From positions 1 to 59,149 of the IMG/VR virus record IMGVR_UViG_3300018465_000001: a stretch of DNA of 59,149 nt. The stretch is one strand, 5' to 3'. Made by a program: the position numbers and the translations under genes. The DNA comes from a virus. The notes under the pieces are model-generated. The model did no database searches. It worked only from the letters and a program-made list of their open reading frames with translations, and was not told where the DNA came from. Positions 34,785 through 57,379 of the stretch are shown here, piece after piece; the stretch's first letter is position 1, and every line of letters starts with the position of its first letter.

Positions 34785-36191
34785 TCAGTCCTCCCCGAGC
34801 ACCGAGGCCAGCGCGCGCCGCGCGTCCTCAGCCCTGTTGCGGTCGTCGGTCTCCACGATAGCGGCCAGCTCGGCCCGAGCGGCCAGGCGCGCCTCCTCGG
34901 CCCGCTCGGCCGCCAGCGCCTGGCGCACGATCGCCTCCACGTCCAGCTTGGGCGCGGCCCGGAACGTGACCGGGTCCGGCCCGAGGCTGGCCACGAGCGA
35001 CACCTGGCGCCCGTTGCGGGAGTGGGTCTCCACCGGGAACCCGGGCTCGGAGTGCGCACGCGGACCGGGGGACAGAGCCAGCACCTCCACCAAGGACAGG
35101 TTGCCGCCGATCTCGCGCCAGTCGCCCGACACCTTCCGGCGCTCCAGGACGACCCGGTCCGAAGCCGACAGATCCGGCTCGATCGCACCGGCCACGACGA
35201 TCCCGTACGCGTCCGGGTACGCGCGCACATGCGCGGCCGTGGTTTTGCGGTCGTACTCCGTCATGGTGGCCGCCGCGCCCAGGGCTAGACCGGCGTGTCG
35301 GCCGCCCAGGGTGATCCGGCCCGCCGTGATCTCCTCGCCGTCCGCCGTCTCCACCGTGAAGCGGTTGAACCAGGAGTACGAGTCGTCCTCCCGGGGAGGG
35401 GTGATGCACACACCCTCGTAGCCGACGTGGCAGGTGGCCCAGGTGGCGATGTGGCCGTAGACCCGGCCCGCCTCCCAGTCCCATGTGATCGGGGTCGGGC
35501 CGTCCAGCTCAGGGAGCGTGAACAGGTCGATGCTCGGCGCCTGGCGCGCCATTCCCGCCACCGAGGCCACGAGGGCCAGCGTGTCCGATCCGGCCTCCTC
35601 CGGATCCGGTTCGATCAGCTCGAACGGCCGGGAGGTCTCGGCGAACGCCGGGATGCTGACCAGCGTGGCGGCGCGCACCCGGCCCTGACTGATCAGGAGT
35701 TCCACCGGTGGCTCCTTGCCACCGTTGGCCTCCATGTACTCCTCGACCATCTCCCAGGTGAGGGGCTCGTCCGACCCGGCCATCACGGCGGTGGCCTCGA
35801 ACGAGTCGAGATCGACGCTCGGGCCGAGCGTGCCGTTGGTCGCGAGGTGCATGGCCTCGGCCACGTCCTCGGCCAGCCGGGGCATGGACTCACGGTCCAC
35901 GTCGTCGAACATCACGCCGCGCGCCCAGACGGCCATAGCCGCCTTGTCCATCCCCTTGGTAGCGGCCGGGGTGGTCCAGCCGTCCGCGAGCGCCTGCTCG
36001 ACGGTGAGGATGGCCGCCTCCTGGACCGCGCCGACCTGGACGGCGCCGTCGTGGCCGCCCTCCCGCTGGCGCACCCACTCGAACGGCATCGGCAGATCGG
36101 CCAGCGAGATGCCGCCGGTGGCGAACCGGCGGCCGTCACCGGTACTGGCGTTGATCGGCGCCAGCATGGTCCGGAACCTGGTACCTGGCAT
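34785..36191 (-). CDS. Capsid maturation protease
   Basis: 468 residues. ISLADLPMPFEWVRQREGGHDGAVQVGAV, FEATAVMAGSDEPL and AATLVSIPAFAETSRPFEL match the actinophage head protease family between portal/MuF and capsid; catalytic residues not certain by eye. C terminus is helical and charged (EAIVRQALAAERAEEARLAAR), like a scaffold. GGGAGG precedes ATG 36191. Confidence 0.8.
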   Translation of the reverse strand: MPGTRFRTMLAPINASTGDGRRFATGGISLADLPMPFEWVRQREGGHDGAVQVGAVQEAAILTVEQALADGWTTPAATKGMDKAAMAVWARGVMFDDVDRESMPRLAEDVAEAMHLATNGTLGPSVDLDSFEATAVMAGSDEPLTWEMVEEYMEANGGKEPPVELLISQGRVRAATLVSIPAFAETSRPFELIEPDPEEAGSDTLALVASVAGMARQAPSIDLFTLPELDGPTPITWDWEAGRVYGHIATWATCHVGYEGVCITPPREDDSYSWFNRFTVETADGEEITAGRITLGGRHAGLALGAAATMTEYDRKTTAAHVRAYPDAYGIVVAGAIEPDLSASDRVVLERRKVSGDWREIGGNLSLVEVLALSPGPRAHSEPGFPVETHSRNGRQVSLVASLGPDPVTFRAAPKLDVEAIVRQALAAERAEEARLAARAELAAIVETDDRNRAEDARRALASVLGED

Positions 36192-36213
36192 GTCGTCCTC
36201 CCTCGATGCCAGG

Positions 36214-37881
36214 CTACCGGCGGGACCGGTACTGGCGGTTGCTCATGTCGACTATCTCGCCGGGCTCCACCAACAGCATGGTGCACCGGCAATTACGGGT
36301 GATGATAGAATTGGCGATGTACCAACCGTGACCAGTATCGAGGTTGAACACATGGCCGTTGAACGTGTACCGCTCGATCCTGACGACCTCCGCGAGCGTC
36401 ACGCTCGTGGGGAGAGCGTCCTCAAGATGGCCCGGGAGCTGGGAACCAGCCGACCGACTATCGTCCGCAAACTGGAGAGCTTGGGCCTGGAGGTCCGGGG
36501 AGGTAGTGAGGCCAACCGGATCCGTATGGCTCAGCTCAGCCCCCAGGCCCGGCGCACCCTGGCCGCCCCCGCCAACTTCGCGCGTCGGTTGCAGCGAGCC
36601 ATGCCCGTGCTCCCCTCGGTCAAGATCCCGGAAATCAAGTCCCCCGCCTACGGGGATCGGGTGATCGGTACAGCCGCTACCCGTACCCGCAAGGTGGGCA
36701 AGGGCGAGGCCGAGCTGATGGACCTCCTCGTCCGTCGCGGGATCGAGGTGAGCGCCCAGGTTCCGGTCTACGGGTACAACCTCGATCTGGCCGTGGGGCG
36801 CGTCGCCGTGGAGGTCTTTTGGGGAGAGGGTTACCCGGTCCGTCATCTTCACCAGGCGAGACGTGCGATAGACCTGGCCGATCTGGGCTGGCACGTGGCC
36901 TGGGTATGGCTCTCGCACCGTATGCCCACCGAGGCGTGCGCTCAGGAGTTGGTCACCTTCCTGGAGTTCGCCAGCGGGTGTCCAGACACCATCCGCCCGG
37001 AGTACCGGGTGATTCGGAGTGATGGTGAGGTTGTCGCCGGTGGCCAGCTCGATACGGACCATCTGGCCCTGGTACCTCCGGCGTAGCGCGTTGCGTAGCC
37101 CGGGGTACTGGACCACGGTGTCCCCGGGTACACACTGGATCACTTCCTGGGGAGGACCGTTCGGGTCCCCGGGGAACGCCAGCTCGAACCCGCCCACCAG
37201 GAACGGCTGGCCGAGCGGCACGCGCTGACCGTCGGCCTCCTGGTGGGTGTTGCGCGTGCGGTGGTCGTCAGTGGCCAGCCAGACGCGCTCCAGCTCTTGA
37301 TCCGGGTCCTCTTCCGCGACCGCCCGGAAGGCCTCGGCCCGGCCCGCGTTCAGGGCGCCGATGGCCTCGGTCCGGGCGATCACCGTGGCCCGGTTGCTCC
37401 AGCGCTCCGACCCGGTCGTTGACAGCACAGTGTCAATGCGCGCCCGGAGTTCCGGGATACCCTCCCCGAGGTTGACCCCGGTGGCCACCTCGTGGGCCAC
37501 CAGGTCGAACACCTCGTCAGGCACCCGGACCAGGCGGTTGGTCACCTCGGCCAGGTAGGTCACGGCGCGCACCCGCTGATCCCAGCGGAACGCGTCGCCG
37601 AAGATCCGGCGGAACCCGGCGGCGAACGCCTTGCGAATCTCGCCGGACACGATCAGGTCCACGGCCTCACGCCACGCGGGAACCCGGGACCAGACCGCGT
37701 CCGGGTTCGGCCGCTGGCCGCCCCGGAGCACGGCACGCGCCGTCTCCACCAGCCAGCCGGACAGCTCGGCCCAGACCGCTTGCCGGATGTCACGTTCCGC
37801 CGTGCCCACCTCGAGACGTGCGTCCAGGCGCTGGGGCAGCCACGGGTCCTCCCCCCGCCCGTTCCAGACCGGCTCGGTCAC
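36214..37881 (-). CDS. MuF head morphogenesis protein interrupted by an intein
   Basis: 555 residues as translated, 274 after splicing (extein 1-249 and 531-555). Extein shows the MuF motif: RTEAIGALNAGRAEAF, WLATDDHRTRNTHQEADGQ, VGGFELAFPGDPNGPPQEVIQ joined to CRCTMLLVEPGE. The intein is placed at the conserved cysteine, 36292-37134. GTG 37881 overlaps the small membrane-peptide stop (GTGA). MuF acts with the portal during capsid assembly. Confidence 0.85.
   Translation of the reverse strand: MTEPVWNGRGEDPWLPQRLDARLEVGTAERDIRQAVWAELSGWLVETARAVLRGGQRPNPDAVWSRVPAWREAVDLIVSGEIRKAFAAGFRRIFGDAFRWDQRVRAVTYLAEVTNRLVRVPDEVFDLVAHEVATGVNLGEGIPELRARIDTVLSTTGSERWSNRATVIARTEAIGALNAGRAEAFRAVAEEDPDQELERVWLATDDHRTRNTHQEADGQRVPLGQPFLVGGFELAFPGDPNGPPQEVIQCVPGDTVVQYPGLRNALRRRYQGQMVRIELATGDNLTITPNHPVLRADGVWTPAGELQEGDQLLSARLGGHTVREPYPGHVPAQIGQVYRTSRLVKMTDRVTLSPKDLHGDAPHGQIEVVPVDRNLGAHLDPATDEEVHQLGLALAHLAGTGSGCTDHPIPVGGGLDFRDLDRGEHGHGSLQPTREVGGGGQGAPGLGAELSHTDPVGLTTSPDLQAQALQFADDSRSAGSQLPGHLEDALPTSVTLAEVVRIERYTFNGHVFNLDTGHGWYIANSIITRNCRCTMLLVEPGEIVDMSNRQYRSRR
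36306..36351 (+). promoter_or_regulatory. Putative promoter/RBS of the antisense endonuclease
   Basis: TAGAAT at 36306-36311 fits a -10; CGAGG at 36339-36343 is 8 nt before ATG 36352. The -10 comprises reverse-complement codons for the intein end. Confidence 0.45.
36352..37086 (+). CDS. Antisense nested homing endonuclease candidate
   Basis: 244 residues, wholly inside the intein but on the opposite strand. Residues ~18-42 form an HTH (GESVLKMARELGTSRPTIVRKL); ~118-185 fit an EDxHD/Vsr-like nuclease: E119/E121 (KGEAEL), D145 (NLDLAVG), E154 (VEVFWG), H165/H167 (VRHLHQ), D174, then GWHVAWVW. Third-position GC is high in this frame and lower in the antisense frame, supporting real coding. Would cut the intein-free MuF allele so that the element spreads. 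Exact start could be GTG 36328. Confidence 0.7.
   Translation: MAVERVPLDPDDLRERHARGESVLKMARELGTSRPTIVRKLESLGLEVRGGSEANRIRMAQLSPQARRTLAAPANFARRLQRAMPVLPSVKIPEIKSPAYGDRVIGTAATRTRKVGKGEAELMDLLVRRGIEVSAQVPVYGYNLDLAVGRVAVEVFWGEGYPVRHLHQARRAIDLADLGWHVAWVWLSHRMPTEACAQELVTFLEFASGCPDTIRPEYRVIRSDGEVVAGGQLDTDHLALVPPA
37430..37445. promoter_or_regulatory. Intragenic operator copy TGACAGCACAGTGTCA
   Basis: Exact TGAC-N8-GTCA inside the MuF gene. Confidence 0.5.
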
Positions 37882-37961
37882 GACAGTCCGGCCCAGATCA
37901 TCAGGCCAGCGATCACGGCCAGAACCGCCAGGGTCCACACCTTGCGCTGAAGATCGGTCAC
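37878..37961 (-). CDS. 27-residue membrane peptide
   Basis: VTDLQRKVWTLAVLAV... one transmembrane helix. GTGA overlaps at both ends (with 37958-38170 and MuF). Coupled translation makes it likely expressed. Confidence 0.5.
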   Translation of the reverse strand: MTDLQRKVWTLAVLAVIAGLMIWAGLS

Positions 37962-52163: not shown

Positions 52164-52179
52164 TGACACTTACGTGTCA
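52164..52179. promoter_or_regulatory. Operator containing a stop codon (TGACACTTACGTGTCA)
   Basis: Provides TGA of the polymerase, followed by the terminator. Confidence 0.7.
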
Positions 52180-55100
52180 TTTCTCGTAGCACTTGCTCCA
52201 GTCCGTGCCGGTCCGGCTCACATCCGCCAGGATGGGCACGCCGCGCCACTCGAACGACAGGGCCTCTACCACCGTGCGGCCGATCTCCTCGGCCCGGTCG
52301 GCCGGAACGCTCAGCACGATCTCGTCGTGGACCTGAGCACGAAGCATGGGGAGGATCTCCGCCGGGAGCCGAAGCAGGCCGGTCATCATGATGTCCCGGG
52401 CCGCGCCCTGGCCCATCAGCGCCGGGCCCTGGGTGTGGGCGCGCTGGGGATCGGGCCGCATCTTGCGGCCGAACCCGTTGTCCAGCAGAGCGCCGGACTC
52501 GGCCAGTGCACGGACCTCCTCGCGCCACTCCACCAGGCGGCCGAACCGCTCCCGCATCGACTGGTCGAACTGAGCCACCAGGCGCGGCTCGATGTCGTTC
52601 TCGGCCGAGATCCGGCGCAAGCTCTCCCCGTAGTTCCAGCCGTGACCAATCGCCTTGGCCTGCTCGCGGTACTCCTTACTACCGAACAGAGCGATAGCCA
52701 GTTCGGAGTGTGGGTCCTCGGACTTCAGCATCTCGATGTAGGCCTGGTCCTGGGACAGACCGGCCACGGCCCGCATGTCGACCTGACTGAGGTCGGCCGA
52801 GATCAGCACTTGACCCGGGTCGGGGAGGAGCACCGCGCGTTCCACGTGGCGGCCGCCGCGCTTGCCCATGACGGTCAGACCGGGCTCGGTCAGGCTCCAT
52901 CTCCCCGTGGCCTGGCGGAACGACACCCGGGGGTGGACCCGGCCGTCCGGCATGGTGTGGTTCTGGATCGTCTCGTAGACCGACCGGGCCGACACGATCC
53001 GGTAGACCGCCGTGCAGAGCTTGCGGAGGTCCGGAGACTTCTGGCCGTACTCCCGGCCGTAGAACCGCATCGCGTCCGCCGAGAGCTGGAGGTCCCCGGA
53101 CTTCGGCGTACGCCACAAGGCCTTGTCCGGAACCCCGAGGTCCGTCAGCGCCTTGCCGATCGCCTCCTTGCCCGCCTTGGTCGCCAGCGGGCTCTTGTAC
53201 GCCGTGCCCTTGCCGTCCGCCAACGGCACCCCGAACCGGGCGGCCAGGTAGGCCAGGGCCTTCTCCTTGGTCTGCTGGATCTCCGTCACCCGCTCGGCCA
53301 GCAGCTTCTCGTCCACCCGGAACCCGTTGTGCGTGATCTGGGCGGCGATGGCGGCCACCCGGTGTTCCCGCTTCACGTACTCCGGCACGACGCCGTCCAG
53401 CTCGATCATCAACCGGGCGTGGAGCAACCGGCTCAGCTCCACGTCCCGGTTCATGTAGTCGATGAACAGGGCGGCATCGGCCGCGCGCTCGGTGCTCGGA
53501 TCGTTGACGTCGATAGGGATCTGGTCCCACCCGCCGTACTTCTTCTCCAGGCCGTGGCTGACGTCGGTCAGCTTCTCGCCCAGGCGGTACTTGGCGGCCA
53601 GCGTGCCCAGGTCGTACTTGCGGGCCGCGTCCACGCCCTTGTCCCGGGCCATCGGTGGGTCCAGGTACCGGGCGCCGATCAGGGCATCGAACACCCGACC
53701 GTCGGCCACCATCCGATGGACCTCGTCCATCGTCATGGCGCCGGACCGGACCAGGGCGGGGATGTCGAACGCCATGATGTTGTGGCCGGTGACCGTCCGA
53801 CCCCGCTTGATCTCGTGAGCCACGTACTGGGCCACGCGCTTGGTCGTGTGGGCATCCACGTCCTGGTCATCGCGCGCGGTCGCTCCGATCCGGACGTACG
53901 TCTCCGGGTCGGCCCGGTAGAGGTCACCGGCATCGCCGGTCTCCAGGTCGAACGTCACCACGCTGGGAACGTCAGGAAGCGCCCGGAAGTGGCCATCCGA
54001 TGTGTCCTCGTCCGGATCGATCTGGATCGGGCTCAACAGGCCGTGGCCTTCCTCAGTCGTGACCACGTTGACGGCCTCTACCTCGGGCTCGTGGCCGCAC
54101 ACGGTCGGGGCACAGTCAATCCACCCGGATACGTCAGGCCCACGGTCCACGCACACCCCGCCGTGGAGCGAGCAACCCAGCTTTCCGTCCCACTCGGTGT
54201 CCACCATTCCGGCCACCAGCGCCTCCAGTTCGTCCGTGATGCTCGGGGGCTGGTCGGTCTGTCCGCCGGTCAGGTCGGACTCGTCTGCGCCGCGTGCGTC
54301 CCCGTGCTCGTTGTACGGCGCCGGGTCCGGCTCAGGGATTGACACGTCAGTGTCATCCCACGGCGGGCTCTCCGGCTCGGGCTCCACCGGTGGCGCCGGG
54401 GGGAGGTCGTCGTCGGAGAACACCCGGTAGACGCTCACGTGGCCGTGGGCCGAACCGACGCGCTCCAGCCAGTGGTCCCCATACCTCCGGCCCCGGATGC
54501 GGCCGTACGCCTCCCCCAGAGCCTTGCCGTAGGTCTTTTCGCTCGGGTCGTCCAACTTGGGCGGGGCGAGGAAGGAGGCCGGATCGGTGAGGGCCTTCTC
54601 CCGGACCTGTGCGGTCTTGAAGGGACGATCGGCGAACTGGTCCCGCAGCCAGCCCAGGTGGCCGATCCAGTACTGGGAGTCGAAATCGGACTCGGAGCGC
54701 CAGACCTTGAGGTTGCCCAGGAAGTCGGCCATCCCGGCCGTTTCCACGATGCCGCCCACCATCCGTTCCCAGACCTCGAACGAGCCGAAGCTGACCCCCC
54801 GCTTCGGGTACGGGGCACCGGCGGCGTACCAGGCCCGGACCAGGGTGAGGATCGCGGTCAGCAGCTCCTTGCGGTGCTTGCGGGTCCAGCTCAGCAGATC
54901 GAGGCCGGACTGGCCGGGGTGCCGGAACGAACTGGCCGCCCGGTCCTGGGGGTTGGCGTACCGGGGCCGAAGTGCGATCCGGTAGACCCGGCGTGTGATG
55001 TCGCCCTTGACCTGGACGTTGTTGCCGAGGGACATCCAGGTCACCCGGTTGGGGAAGTGGGCCATGGTGCTCACGCCCAGGATCCGGTCCTGCCAGGTCT

Positions 55101-56643
55101 CGGCGGTCAGCGCCTGAGCCAGCGCCGCGCCCTCCAGGACCGGCGCCTCATCGAACACGAAGAACTCGGCGCCGGTGCGGAACGCGCTGGTGATCTGCTT
55201 ACGGAGTTCGTCCGGCTCGTTCACCCAGTTCATCGGCTGGGCCGCGTGGCCGGTGTAGACCGTGAGGATCGAGTCGGCCAGCAGGTTCTTGCCCACGCCC
55301 ATCTGCAGGCCGTCAACCACGGCCATCGGGGCGCGCGGCATCATGCCCCGGATCGTCGGGGTGATCACCAGGCCCAGGAGGTTGGCCCGGTCGGCCTCGG
55401 TGTCGACGGGGAAGTCCCCCAGCCACTCCTCCATGATCAGGTTTCGGGCCTGAGCGATCTGGTCGGCCGTCGGGCTCTCCGGAACCTCGATCCCCTCGAA
55501 TGCCTCGTCCGGCATGAGGATGGTCCTGGTTGTCTCGTCGTATCCGGGCTCGGTGACGATCGTTCCGTCGGGGCGGACGAACGGCGCGTGCGCCAGCCGC
55601 TCCAGCTTGGCGAACCGGTCGGACCGGCTCATGGTCGCGGCCATGGTGCCGGAGTCCGGCCAGGCGAACGAGTAGGTGGTGCCCTGGGCTCCCTCGTTCT
55701 CGTTCACCGTGACGGCCGTGGCCTGGACGATGTCGTGGAAGGACCCCCGGTCCACCGGGTGCATGGCGTCGTTGATGCGCCGGGAGATCACCCCGCCATG
55801 GCTGAACAGCTCGGTGGCGTTCCAGCGCTTGAGGAGAGCGTCGGTCAGGTCGTTGATCACCTCGTACCGGTCGCGGTTCACGATGAGGGTCGGTCGGTCG
55901 GCTCCCCCGGTCGGCACGGTCCCTCCCTTCTTGCGCGCCTTGGGCGCACGGTCGGCGGGCTTGGGCTTCGCGCCCTCGATCAGGCGGACCAGGTACGCGG
56001 CGCGCCGGTCGGCCGGTCGGCTGGCCAGGATGTCGTCCAGGCCGGACTTGCCGCCACCGGGGAGGCGGCCGAACAGCACCTTGTCTGCTCCCTCCATGGC
56101 CAGGGCCTCGGTCAGCCCCATCCCGGCGGAGTAGACGTCCGGGTTGGTGGCCGCGTCCGCGTCCAGGATCACGACCACCTTCTTGCCGTCCAGAACGGCC
56201 AGGTCGGGGATCGGCACCCCGTCGATCTGCCACATCCGGCATCCGGCGATCGAGTAGACGCTCATCCCGGCCGGTGCGTAGCTGGCCCCGGCCAGTCCCT
56301 GTTTGGTCCCCTCGATGATCAGCGCGGTGTCTGCGCCGTCCACCTCGCGCAAGGCCCACAGGACCGGCTCGGCCGCGCGGCCGAACACGTACTTGCGGGG
56401 CTTGCCGGTCTTCTGGTCCACGGTCGGGTTGTCCGGCCGGGCCTGGAACATGACCCGGCCGTCGGGGGAGGTCCAGGGGAAGAGGATGGCCGGGAAGTTG
56501 GCGAAGTTGACCCAGTTGTCGTCGCCGGTCGCCTCCATGTCGGCGCGGCTGTTGACGGTGCGCACACCCAGCTTCTCAGCCAGGTCGGGGTCCACGGCCT
56601 GGCTGGCGAGGTATGCCCGGTGCTCGGTGCTCAGGTTGGTCAC
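52177..56643 (-). CDS. Primase/ATPase/DNA polymerase I fusion
   Basis: 1,488 residues. TOPRIM-type EGTKQG (111) and LDADA (D161/D163) near the N terminus; AAA-like ATPase with DGLQMGVGKN (444-453, Asn instead of Ser/Thr) and FFVFDEA (about 494-500); Cys-rich insert ~823-850; 3'-5' exonuclease D899/E901, NIMAFD (955-960), YMNRD; family-A polymerase motif A D1284, O-helix K1330/Y1338, motif C HDE (1439-1441). GTG 56643 has GGAAGGA 7 nt upstream. Replicates the phage genome. Confidence 0.9.
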   Translation of the reverse strand: MTNLSTEHRAYLASQAVDPDLAEKLGVRTVNSRADMEATGDDNWVNFANFPAILFPWTSPDGRVMFQARPDNPTVDQKTGKPRKYVFGRAAEPVLWALREVDGADTALIIEGTKQGLAGASYAPAGMSVYSIAGCRMWQIDGVPIPDLAVLDGKKVVVILDADAATNPDVYSAGMGLTEALAMEGADKVLFGRLPGGGKSGLDDILASRPADRRAAYLVRLIEGAKPKPADRAPKARKKGGTVPTGGADRPTLIVNRDRYEVINDLTDALLKRWNATELFSHGGVISRRINDAMHPVDRGSFHDIVQATAVTVNENEGAQGTTYSFAWPDSGTMAATMSRSDRFAKLERLAHAPFVRPDGTIVTEPGYDETTRTILMPDEAFEGIEVPESPTADQIAQARNLIMEEWLGDFPVDTEADRANLLGLVITPTIRGMMPRAPMAVVDGLQMGVGKNLLADSILTVYTGHAAQPMNWVNEPDELRKQITSAFRTGAEFFVFDEAPVLEGAALAQALTAETWQDRILGVSTMAHFPNRVTWMSLGNNVQVKGDITRRVYRIALRPRYANPQDRAASSFRHPGQSGLDLLSWTRKHRKELLTAILTLVRAWYAAGAPYPKRGVSFGSFEVWERMVGGIVETAGMADFLGNLKVWRSESDFDSQYWIGHLGWLRDQFADRPFKTAQVREKALTDPASFLAPPKLDDPSEKTYGKALGEAYGRIRGRRYGDHWLERVGSAHGHVSVYRVFSDDDLPPAPPVEPEPESPPWDDTDVSIPEPDPAPYNEHGDARGADESDLTGGQTDQPPSITDELEALVAGMVDTEWDGKLGCSLHGGVCVDRGPDVSGWIDCAPTVCGHEPEVEAVNVVTTEEGHGLLSPIQIDPDEDTSDGHFRALPDVPSVVTFDLETGDAGDLYRADPETYVRIGATARDDQDVDAHTTKRVAQYVAHEIKRGRTVTGHNIMAFDIPALVRSGAMTMDEVHRMVADGRVFDALIGARYLDPPMARDKGVDAARKYDLGTLAAKYRLGEKLTDVSHGLEKKYGGWDQIPIDVNDPSTERAADAALFIDYMNRDVELSRLLHARLMIELDGVVPEYVKREHRVAAIAAQITHNGFRVDEKLLAERVTEIQQTKEKALAYLAARFGVPLADGKGTAYKSPLATKAGKEAIGKALTDLGVPDKALWRTPKSGDLQLSADAMRFYGREYGQKSPDLRKLCTAVYRIVSARSVYETIQNHTMPDGRVHPRVSFRQATGRWSLTEPGLTVMGKRGGRHVERAVLLPDPGQVLISADLSQVDMRAVAGLSQDQAYIEMLKSEDPHSELAIALFGSKEYREQAKAIGHGWNYGESLRRISAENDIEPRLVAQFDQSMRERFGRLVEWREEVRALAESGALLDNGFGRKMRPDPQRAHTQGPALMGQGAARDIMMTGLLRLPAEILPMLRAQVHDEIVLSVPADRAEEIGRTVVEALSFEWRGVPILADVSRTGTDWSKCYEK
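54340..54355. promoter_or_regulatory. Intragenic operator copy TGACACGTCAGTGTCA
   Basis: Exact copy within the polymerase. Confidence 0.55.
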
Positions 56644-56694
56644 GCTCGGTTCCTTCCGATGAAACGACCGGCCCACCCCCGGTGGGCCGGTCCG

Positions 56695-56710
56695 TCGTTG
56701 TCCAGTGTCA
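56695..56710. promoter_or_regulatory. Half operator spanning a stop
   Basis: Only CAGTGTCA half is good; again includes the TGA of the coiled-coil gene. Confidence 0.3.
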
Positions 56711-57379
56711 CGCGAGCGTGTCGAGAGCCTTGCCGATCTCCCGGCTGAGGAAGGTGATTCCACGTGCGGAGGTCATCTCGCAGACCCGGGTCACCTCGGG
56801 GTTGGACAGGATGACCCGGGTGTTGTCGATCCGGCGTGTCAGCTCGGCCACGTCGTTCTCCAGCTTGGCCAGCGCCTGACGGCCGAGCATGGCCACGTGT
56901 TGGTCACCGTCGCATCCGCCGGTGCACACGTGGGCCGTGCTGAATTTCAGATTGGCCTCGTCCCGCTGACGCCGAAGTTCTACGATCTCCCGGTGGTCGG
57001 CCTGACGCCCTTCCTCCAGCTCGGCCACCCGGCGCTCCAGCTCATTACGCTGGGCCCGGAACATGTCCGCGTCCTTCTCGCGCAGCTCCAGTTTCCCGGC
57101 GCACGTGGAGTGCTCCCGGGTGACCCGGTCGGCGCGGTTCCGCTCGGTGTGCCGGTCCTCGTCGTATCCCCGGACCTTCTCCTCCAGCTCGGAGACCCGG
57201 CCCCGGAGCTTGCCGATCTGCTCCAGGTGCATCTCCTCGTTGGTCTGGTACTGGTCGATCTCGGCCTGGGTGTAGACCCGGCTCTCGGCCACCTGGCGGA
57301 TCTCGGCACCGGACCCCGTGATCTCGATGGTCACGTGGTCGGCGTGGAACTCCTCCGCCGTTCTGATCCTGATCTCCAT
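56708..57379 (-). CDS. Coiled-coil protein upstream of polymerase
   Basis: 223 residues; long coiled coil (LEQIGKLRGRVSELEEKVRG...ELERRVAELEEGRQ) and C-terminal VCTGGCDGD. ATG 57379 after GGGGAG. Role in replication unknown. Confidence 0.65.
   Translation of the reverse strand: MEIRIRTAEEFHADHVTIEITGSGAEIRQVAESRVYTQAEIDQYQTNEEMHLEQIGKLRGRVSELEEKVRGYDEDRHTERNRADRVTREHSTCAGKLELREKDADMFRAQRNELERRVAELEEGRQADHREIVELRRQRDEANLKFSTAHVCTGGCDGDQHVAMLGRQALAKLENDVAELTRRIDNTRVILSNPEVTRVCEMTSARGITFLSREIGKALDTLA

Follow-up and report, generated by a model that had tools for sequence, protein, structure and literature searches.

An intein in phage MuF genes with a probable homing endonuclease gene on its opposite strand

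The MuF-type minor capsid gene of a viral genome from IMG/VR (record IMGVR_UViG_3300018465_000001, 59,149 bases; this whole stretch of DNA is called the window below) is interrupted by an intein, and the strand opposite to this intein contains a gene for a separate nuclease. Very likely, this intein is mobile and has its homing endonuclease encoded on the antisense strand; splicing, the cleavage site, independent transcription and its timing, and antisense repression of the MuF mRNA are inferred. As far as sequence alone can establish, both open reading frames are there, nested and codon-aligned, as are empty sites, selection on two strands, a selected Shine-Dalgarno, ATG and -10, and a presence/absence polymorphism.

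In the proposed mechanism, the MuF transcript would be translated straight through the intein, whose ends would fold into a Hint domain and self-splice, with a poorly structured linker as the middle, which mirrors the nuclease gene codon for codon. A putative promoter and ribosome-binding site, lying antisense to the intein C-terminal block, would give a separate HTH and Vsr-fold nuclease from the opposite strand. The targets of this nuclease would be the CxC codons of intein-free MuF genes, and repair of the cut would copy intein and nuclease together into the gene. The features are listed in Table 1.

Table 1. Features of the window and of the Gordonia phage Lennon locus (L247), with the basis for each.
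Feature	Position	Strand	Basis
MuF-type minor capsid gene (N-extein, intein, C-extein)	36214..37938	-	Pfam Phage_Mu_F E 6.8e-10; intein-free homologue in phiAsp2
Intein, 281 aa, 843 nt (C1...RN, then C+1)	36292..37134	-	splicing blocks at both ends; phiAsp2 empty site
+1 Cys codon, first residue of MuF CRC motif (C-extein)	36289..36291	-	
Antisense nuclease gene (HEN), 244 aa: N-terminal HTH, linker, Vsr-fold nuclease domain	36352..37086	+	ATG 36352, stop TAG 37084-37086
HTH DNA-binding domain, HEN residues about 10-44	36379..36483	+	Pfam HTH_7/HTH_38/HTH_50; AF2 helices 10-43
Nuclease core, HEN residues 119-189, including E119, D145, E154, R171	36706..36918	+	Pfam MTES_1575; residue conservation
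Putative extended -10 box TGA-TAGAAT, antisense to intein C-terminal block	36303-36311 (TAGAAT 36306..36311)	+	sequence
Shine-Dalgarno GAGGT, antisense to intein codons Asn-Leu of HVFNL	36340..36344	+	sequence; codon randomisation
Nuclease ATG start, antisense to His codon (CAT) of intein HVFNL	36352..36354	+	sequence; codon randomisation
HEN residues 205-244, antisense to intein N-terminal splicing blocks (TPNHPVL)	36964..37083	+	substitutions favour intein frame
Lennon intein, different type at same MuF codon	L247:1448-2272	+	
Lennon antisense codon-aligned protein, 196 aa	L247:1559-2149	-	LAGLIDADG-like motif (AAYVAAFIDGEG)

The intein and its insertion site

The intein protein starts with CVPGDT (C1 codon at 37132-37134, minus strand) and ends with ITRN (last Asn codon at 36292-36294) directly before the Cys of the MuF CRC motif. 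After its removal in silico, the junction reads EVIQ followed by CRCTMLLVEPGE, identical to the intein-free MuF of Actinoplanes phage phiAsp2. Since the phiAsp2 gene is uninterrupted at this junction and its DNA matches closely on both sides, the insert is exactly 843 nt. The criteria for an intein are satisfied, with a nucleophile at position 1, a terminal Asn, a Cys at +1 and the same codon uninterrupted in the phiAsp2 homologue. On the other side, the penultimate residue is Arg and not the usual His, which counts against the proposed explanation. The Pfam match of the minus protein to Intein_splicing (E 1.5e-6) is below the curated cut-off.

Structures were predicted with AlphaFold from alignments of 49 sequences for the intein and 69 for the plus protein, limited to the window and the loci of the collection scans, with phage records left out. 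Residues 1-70 and 240-281 of the intein are modelled with high confidence, and most of 126-227 has a pLDDT below 50. A Foldseek search with this model finds the RadA, RecA and GyrA inteins (prob 1.00, best E 5e-4), which satisfies the criterion of a Hint fold. The initial annotation had placed an intein at the MuF CRC motif, and the exact empty site in phiAsp2, the splicing blocks and the Hint fold match all bear this out. It had also suggested looking for MuF genes without the intein, and these exist in phiAsp2, in Gordonia phage ChadMasterC and in Salmonella jerseyviruses, all of them exact empty sites.

As for the middle of the intein, the Pfam scan of the minus protein gave no endonuclease match there, and pLDDT is low. 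With most of it at low confidence, the middle is taken as a mostly poorly structured linker, the other strand of which encodes a folded enzyme. The criterion for a canonical in-frame endonuclease is not satisfied, the nuclease being on the opposite strand. An Rfam scan of 35900-37500 gave no intron match at E<=1, so membership in group I or II introns is not satisfied either. A motif search found no second intein elsewhere in the window, the polymerase-primase gene included. That gene (52177-56763, 1,528 aa) joins primase-like and family A DNA polymerase regions and has no intein motif.

The antisense nuclease

The plus protein is predicted with a mean pLDDT of 88.5, with an HTH joined by a linker to a nuclease domain of mixed alpha/beta structure. 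Its best solved structure in Foldseek is 3r3p, the catalytic domain of I-Bth0305I (prob 1.00, E 5e-3, TMt 0.57), and the top matches include the endonuclease-like 3hrl. The sequence profile of the nuclease matches 3hrl (E 1e-8), 3r3p (E 9.6e-5) and, weakly, Vsr 1cw0 (0.08). Both searches satisfy the criterion of a Vsr-like catalytic fold, as in the EDxHD nucleases of the I-Bth0305I type. The Pfam matches, to the nuclease family MTES_1575 (E 6e-4) and to several HTH families, all fall short of the cut-off; with 20.3 bits against a curated cut-off of 38.2, membership in REase_MTES_1575/DUF559 is not satisfied. Among 25 nuclease homologues, MTES_1575 is matched at E<=0.01 in 11 and HTH_7 in 15. 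The earlier reading of 36352-37086 as an HTH joined to a Vsr-like nuclease is therefore supported by the model, by the I-Bth0305I match and by the HTH families, and the fold searches proposed with it gave a match for each product (I-Bth0305I and the Vsr fold for the plus protein, the RadA, RecA and GyrA inteins for the minus protein).

The active site proposed at the outset (E119/121, D145, E154, H165/167, D174) holds only in part. In about 194 homologues, the conserved set comprises E119 (184/196), Q136 (177/194), Y142 (193/194), N143 (190/194), D145 (193/194), E154 (194/194), R171 (187/194) and also G179. H165 (22/172), H167 (14/191) and D174 (19/194) are not conserved. The criterion of a conserved E, D, H, D active site is thus not satisfied, the H/D pair not being conserved, which counts against the proposed explanation, and we describe the nuclease by fold only, without filing it as an EDxHD member.

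The ribosome site GAGG and the TAGAAT box of the initial annotation are both found, the former as GAGGT 7-8 nt upstream of the ATG and the latter preceded by TGA. The -35 of this gene is weak, which also counts against the proposed explanation.

Distribution of the layout

The layout is conserved in phages of Actinomycetota, of Pseudomonadota (Salmonella, Pseudomonas, Vibrio and Haemophilus phages included), in Helicobacter and in others. A plus protein with 67% identity was found in the same nested layout. With the nuclease as query, tblastn found matches in 125 phage records, the carriers being Salmonella, Gordonia, Pseudomonas, Klebsiella, Escherichia, Vibrio and Haemophilus phages, a Helicobacter prophage and others. 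In all 23 phage records examined, the nuclease lies antisense inside one host open reading frame, in the codon-aligned frame each time. The annotated records that we examined have labels only for the host gene, or for host gene plus intein, and the nuclease is unannotated.

IMG/VR and bacterial genomes were scanned with sub-alignments, the 25-member alignment being too diverse for this use. The scans gave 69, 166 (80 kept) and 29 viral loci and 5 bacterial loci. Some are near-duplicates, and all loci form 146 clusters at 70% identity. By a simple scripted rule, 170 of 176 loci are antisense-nested. The six exceptions are three contig ends, two loci that are truly nested and just under the threshold (L196, L199) and one non-intein copy (L138). 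Two loci that passed the rule (L075, L076) look like non-intein copies, with an intact MuF and then the nuclease, oriented oppositely. L138 likewise has an intact MuF, after which the nuclease lies on the other strand, with a remnant intein C-terminus, a duplicated C-extein (CRCTTLPAFGP) and stops in the antisense frame.

The host N-exteins (n=140) match Phage_Mu_F in 81 cases, Phage_min_cap2 in 15, VG15 in 7, dCMP deaminase in 2, and NUDIX and UDG in one each; portal matches among them are probably reading frames read through from upstream in the extracted sequence. The usual insertion point is just before the CxC/CxH motif of MuF. Other sites are CRARD (Escherichia phage), TIDGKTR (Mycobacterium phage Sejanus) and the zinc motifs of deaminases. 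One annotated head morphogenesis protein (L016:616-1968, Virus Rctr197k) seems to be a dCMP deaminase into which an intein with an antisense nuclease is inserted. In enterobacterial phages, two related MuF genes (L020 and L012) were invaded at separate codons, CRARD in one and CRSTTAP in the other, and both inteins have an antisense nuclease.

Mobility

Near-identical genes differ in the presence or absence of the insert at one site, which satisfies the criterion for a homing element. In Gordonia phages with MuF genes about 95% identical, the same codon is empty (ChadMasterC) or filled with a Sedona-type intein, a Fosterous-type intein or a third type (Lennon). A query of Salmonella jerseyvirus MuF plus intein matched 348 phage records, of which 58 cover at least 80% of it; among the matches listed, most others, SETP13 included, have the two flanking pieces only, spanning 816 nt less. 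The polymorphism and the different inteins at one codon indicate homing, with transfer and cleavage being inferred from these comparisons.

A nested nuclease could also be real without homing, or without homing any longer, serving competition between phages or regulation of MuF through antisense RNA, with ordinary recombination to account for the spread of the intein. Homing endonucleases of phages can have a role in competition, a transcript from the antisense strand would overlap the MuF mRNA, and in the non-intein derivatives (L138, L075/L076) the nuclease persists downstream of an intact MuF. Such an explanation sits badly with the clean presence/absence at one codon of near-identical genes and with several unrelated inteins at that codon. 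It also has to face the nuclease sequences from the deaminase and TIDGKTR sites, which group by insertion site. All three are the usual footprint of homing. We regard it as unlikely, and prefer the mobile intein with an antisense homing endonuclease.

Selection on both strands

In the codon-aligned antisense arrangement, position 3 of a plus codon is position 1 of a minus codon, and vice versa. Such frames inherit similarity from each other, and the plus frame might be only a shadow, left open by GC-rich, codon-aligned composition over an intein-frame protein whose conserved middle is the real product. The initial annotation had appealed to third codon positions to tell the strands apart, in wording that was ambiguous as to strand. 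In the window, GC3 does not separate them clearly (0.78 on plus, 0.74 on minus); the substitution pattern does. Gene-body wobble substitutions fall on the plus frame in 12/12 chosen pairs. In 58 independent pairs, the ratio of plus-wobble to intein-wobble substitutions is 1.2-2.0 over HEN residues 1-204, that is, most of the gene, except at 145-156 (1.03). It is reversed at residues 205-216 (0.67) and is 0.8-1.0 at 217-244, facing the intein N-terminal splicing blocks.

These last regions are what the shadow explanation can draw on. HEN residues 205-244 mirror intein block B, and the C-terminal 40 residues of the nuclease may be hitch-hiking on the intein blocks. Residues 145-156 (36784-36819; YNLD..VAVE) are frozen at both wobble positions (0.21/0.06/0.21, 58 pairs); their antisense reads "DFHGD..VEVV" in the intein, where the intein model is confident. 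Either a double constraint from the two proteins or a DNA element could account for this segment. We also considered DFHGD as a general intein motif and rejected it, with none of 32 control inteins having it after block B.

Missing stop codons point to constraint on the intein frame as well. Each TTA, CTA or TCA codon in the nuclease gene would be a stop in the intein, and none occurs in 25/25 nuclease genes, where the neighbouring genes in each phage would predict 0.7-14. This absence has P of about 10^-5 to 10^-7 (log10 P down to -7.4) in Vibrio phages and in the Helicobacter prophage with 34% GC; the values are approximate, only flanking genes having been used for the background frequencies. 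Among 175 further loci, such codons occur in L075 and L076 alone; L138 has them also, two in each of these three non-intein loci. A freestanding nuclease gene that sits in the intein as a chance passenger, with no selection on the antisense frame, is hardly credible given the stops missing from nested copies and the conserved, constrained splicing blocks, even if the same nuclease family can occur outside inteins, as in these three loci.

Furthermore, the start of the nuclease gene leaves its mark on the intein. Across loci, the nuclease ATG lies opposite the His codon in intein HVYNL, and the Shine-Dalgarno opposite the Asn/Asp-Leu(-Gln) codons. Bacterial intein loci were considered as controls for these block F codons; only 9 have the motif and none has the His, so synonymous-codon randomisation was used instead. 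For 99 non-redundant loci, intein amino acids were kept fixed and codons were drawn from the usage of each phage, 100 times. The Shine-Dalgarno is observed in 59 loci (16.8+/-3.1 at random), the ATG in 87 (37.2+/-4.5), a TATAAT-like -10 in 73 (33.8+/-3.4) and a -35/-10 pair in 38 (18.2+/-3.0), and none of these counts was reached in any of the 100 randomisations. The intein C-terminal codons are chosen to serve the opposite strand, with an antisense Shine-Dalgarno, ATG and -10. The independent expression unit postulated by the initial annotation gains support from this codon selection, in the absence of plus-strand RNA data.

A mere shadow is very improbable in view of this. The plus protein is confidently modelled and matches a nuclease whereas the intein middle stays below 50, the wobble substitutions favour the plus frame over most of the gene, the plus-strand Shine-Dalgarno, ATG and -10 are under selection, and the layout is kept at 34-50% GC, a range in which antisense frames would not be expected to stay open. 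Both strands are in fact coding, and constraint dominates in different segments. As the same back-to-front layout occurs in phages of several bacterial phyla, two proteins are under selection from the two strands of one stretch of DNA.

A second nuclease family and the extent of the class

The Lennon intein has an antisense, codon-aligned protein of another kind (Table 1). It matches a PHROG endonuclease family labelled HNH (E 2e-15) and the LAGLIDADG enzyme I-MsoI (E 1e-3), with no Pfam match. Nine Gordonia records have this type of antisense nuclease, and a cyanophage relative is freestanding. No relatives were found in the viral-contig scan, and no Shine-Dalgarno is evident for the antisense gene. 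With an unrelated, LAGLIDADG-like nuclease in the same layout, the arrangement seems to have arisen more than once.

We lean somewhat towards a broader proposal, in which inteins with antisense endonucleases would be a widespread class, intein and nuclease being a co-evolved, codon-aligned pair. The reversed HVYNL would supply Shine-Dalgarno and start, and the class would have arisen at least twice, mostly with Vsr-fold nucleases and with a LAGLIDADG-like one in Lennon. Transcription of the nuclease would not depend on that of the late host gene, which would itself be under antisense control.

Such a class would explain the continued spread of phage MuF inteins with a long, poorly structured middle, the lack of the nuclease in annotations, and how a mobile element times its nuclease independently of a late structural gene. 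The loci also form a large, natural and statistically tractable data set on the long-debated reality of long antisense overlapping genes, with selection at the protein level on both strands and the non-intein derivatives as a control.

Comparison with known systems

Inteins are usually described as mini-inteins or with an in-frame endonuclease domain. In the open-licence literature, we found no account of an endonuclease encoded antisense within an intein; this leaves out a 2025 preprint on actinophage inteins with "non-canonical architecture". Like canonical large inteins with in-frame LAGLIDADG or HNH domains, the present element has an endonuclease region that splits its Hint domain, occupies a conserved codon in an important gene and shows presence/absence polymorphism. 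It differs in that the nuclease is a separate protein of the opposite strand with its own start, Shine-Dalgarno and promoter-like box, so that the intein, once excised, is a different protein from the nuclease.

The nuclease fold is that of I-Bth0305I (EDxHD/Vsr-fold), which is intron-encoded, and Vsr-like homing nucleases at intein loci recall the fractured-gene split inteins, in which the nuclease reportedly lies between separate split-intein genes (as described by Dassa et al. in 2009). Unlike in both, one uninterrupted intein reading frame overlaps the nuclease here, and the second catalytic His/Asp pair is not conserved.

Hidden HNH insertions without a detectable splicing domain occur in the methylases of phages ShiLan and Pacc40, and in ShiLan the HNH nuclease is in another frame of the same transcript (PMC11855218). 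These insertions share with the window a homing nuclease that is concealed, in another reading frame, within an in-frame insertion in a phage gene (PMC11855218). The window differs in its opposite strand, its true intein with a Hint domain and its Vsr-fold nuclease, and a ShiLan-type assignment is not satisfied.

Finally, group I introns of rDNA, for example in Porphyra, have His-Cys box homing genes on the complementary strand (PMC2585584). They have in common with the window a self-splicing element whose homing gene runs on the strand opposite to that of the host gene (PMC2585584). In these introns, the element is a ribozyme in an rRNA gene, and so its antisense strand is under no protein constraint, whereas in the window both strands encode proteins, codon for codon.
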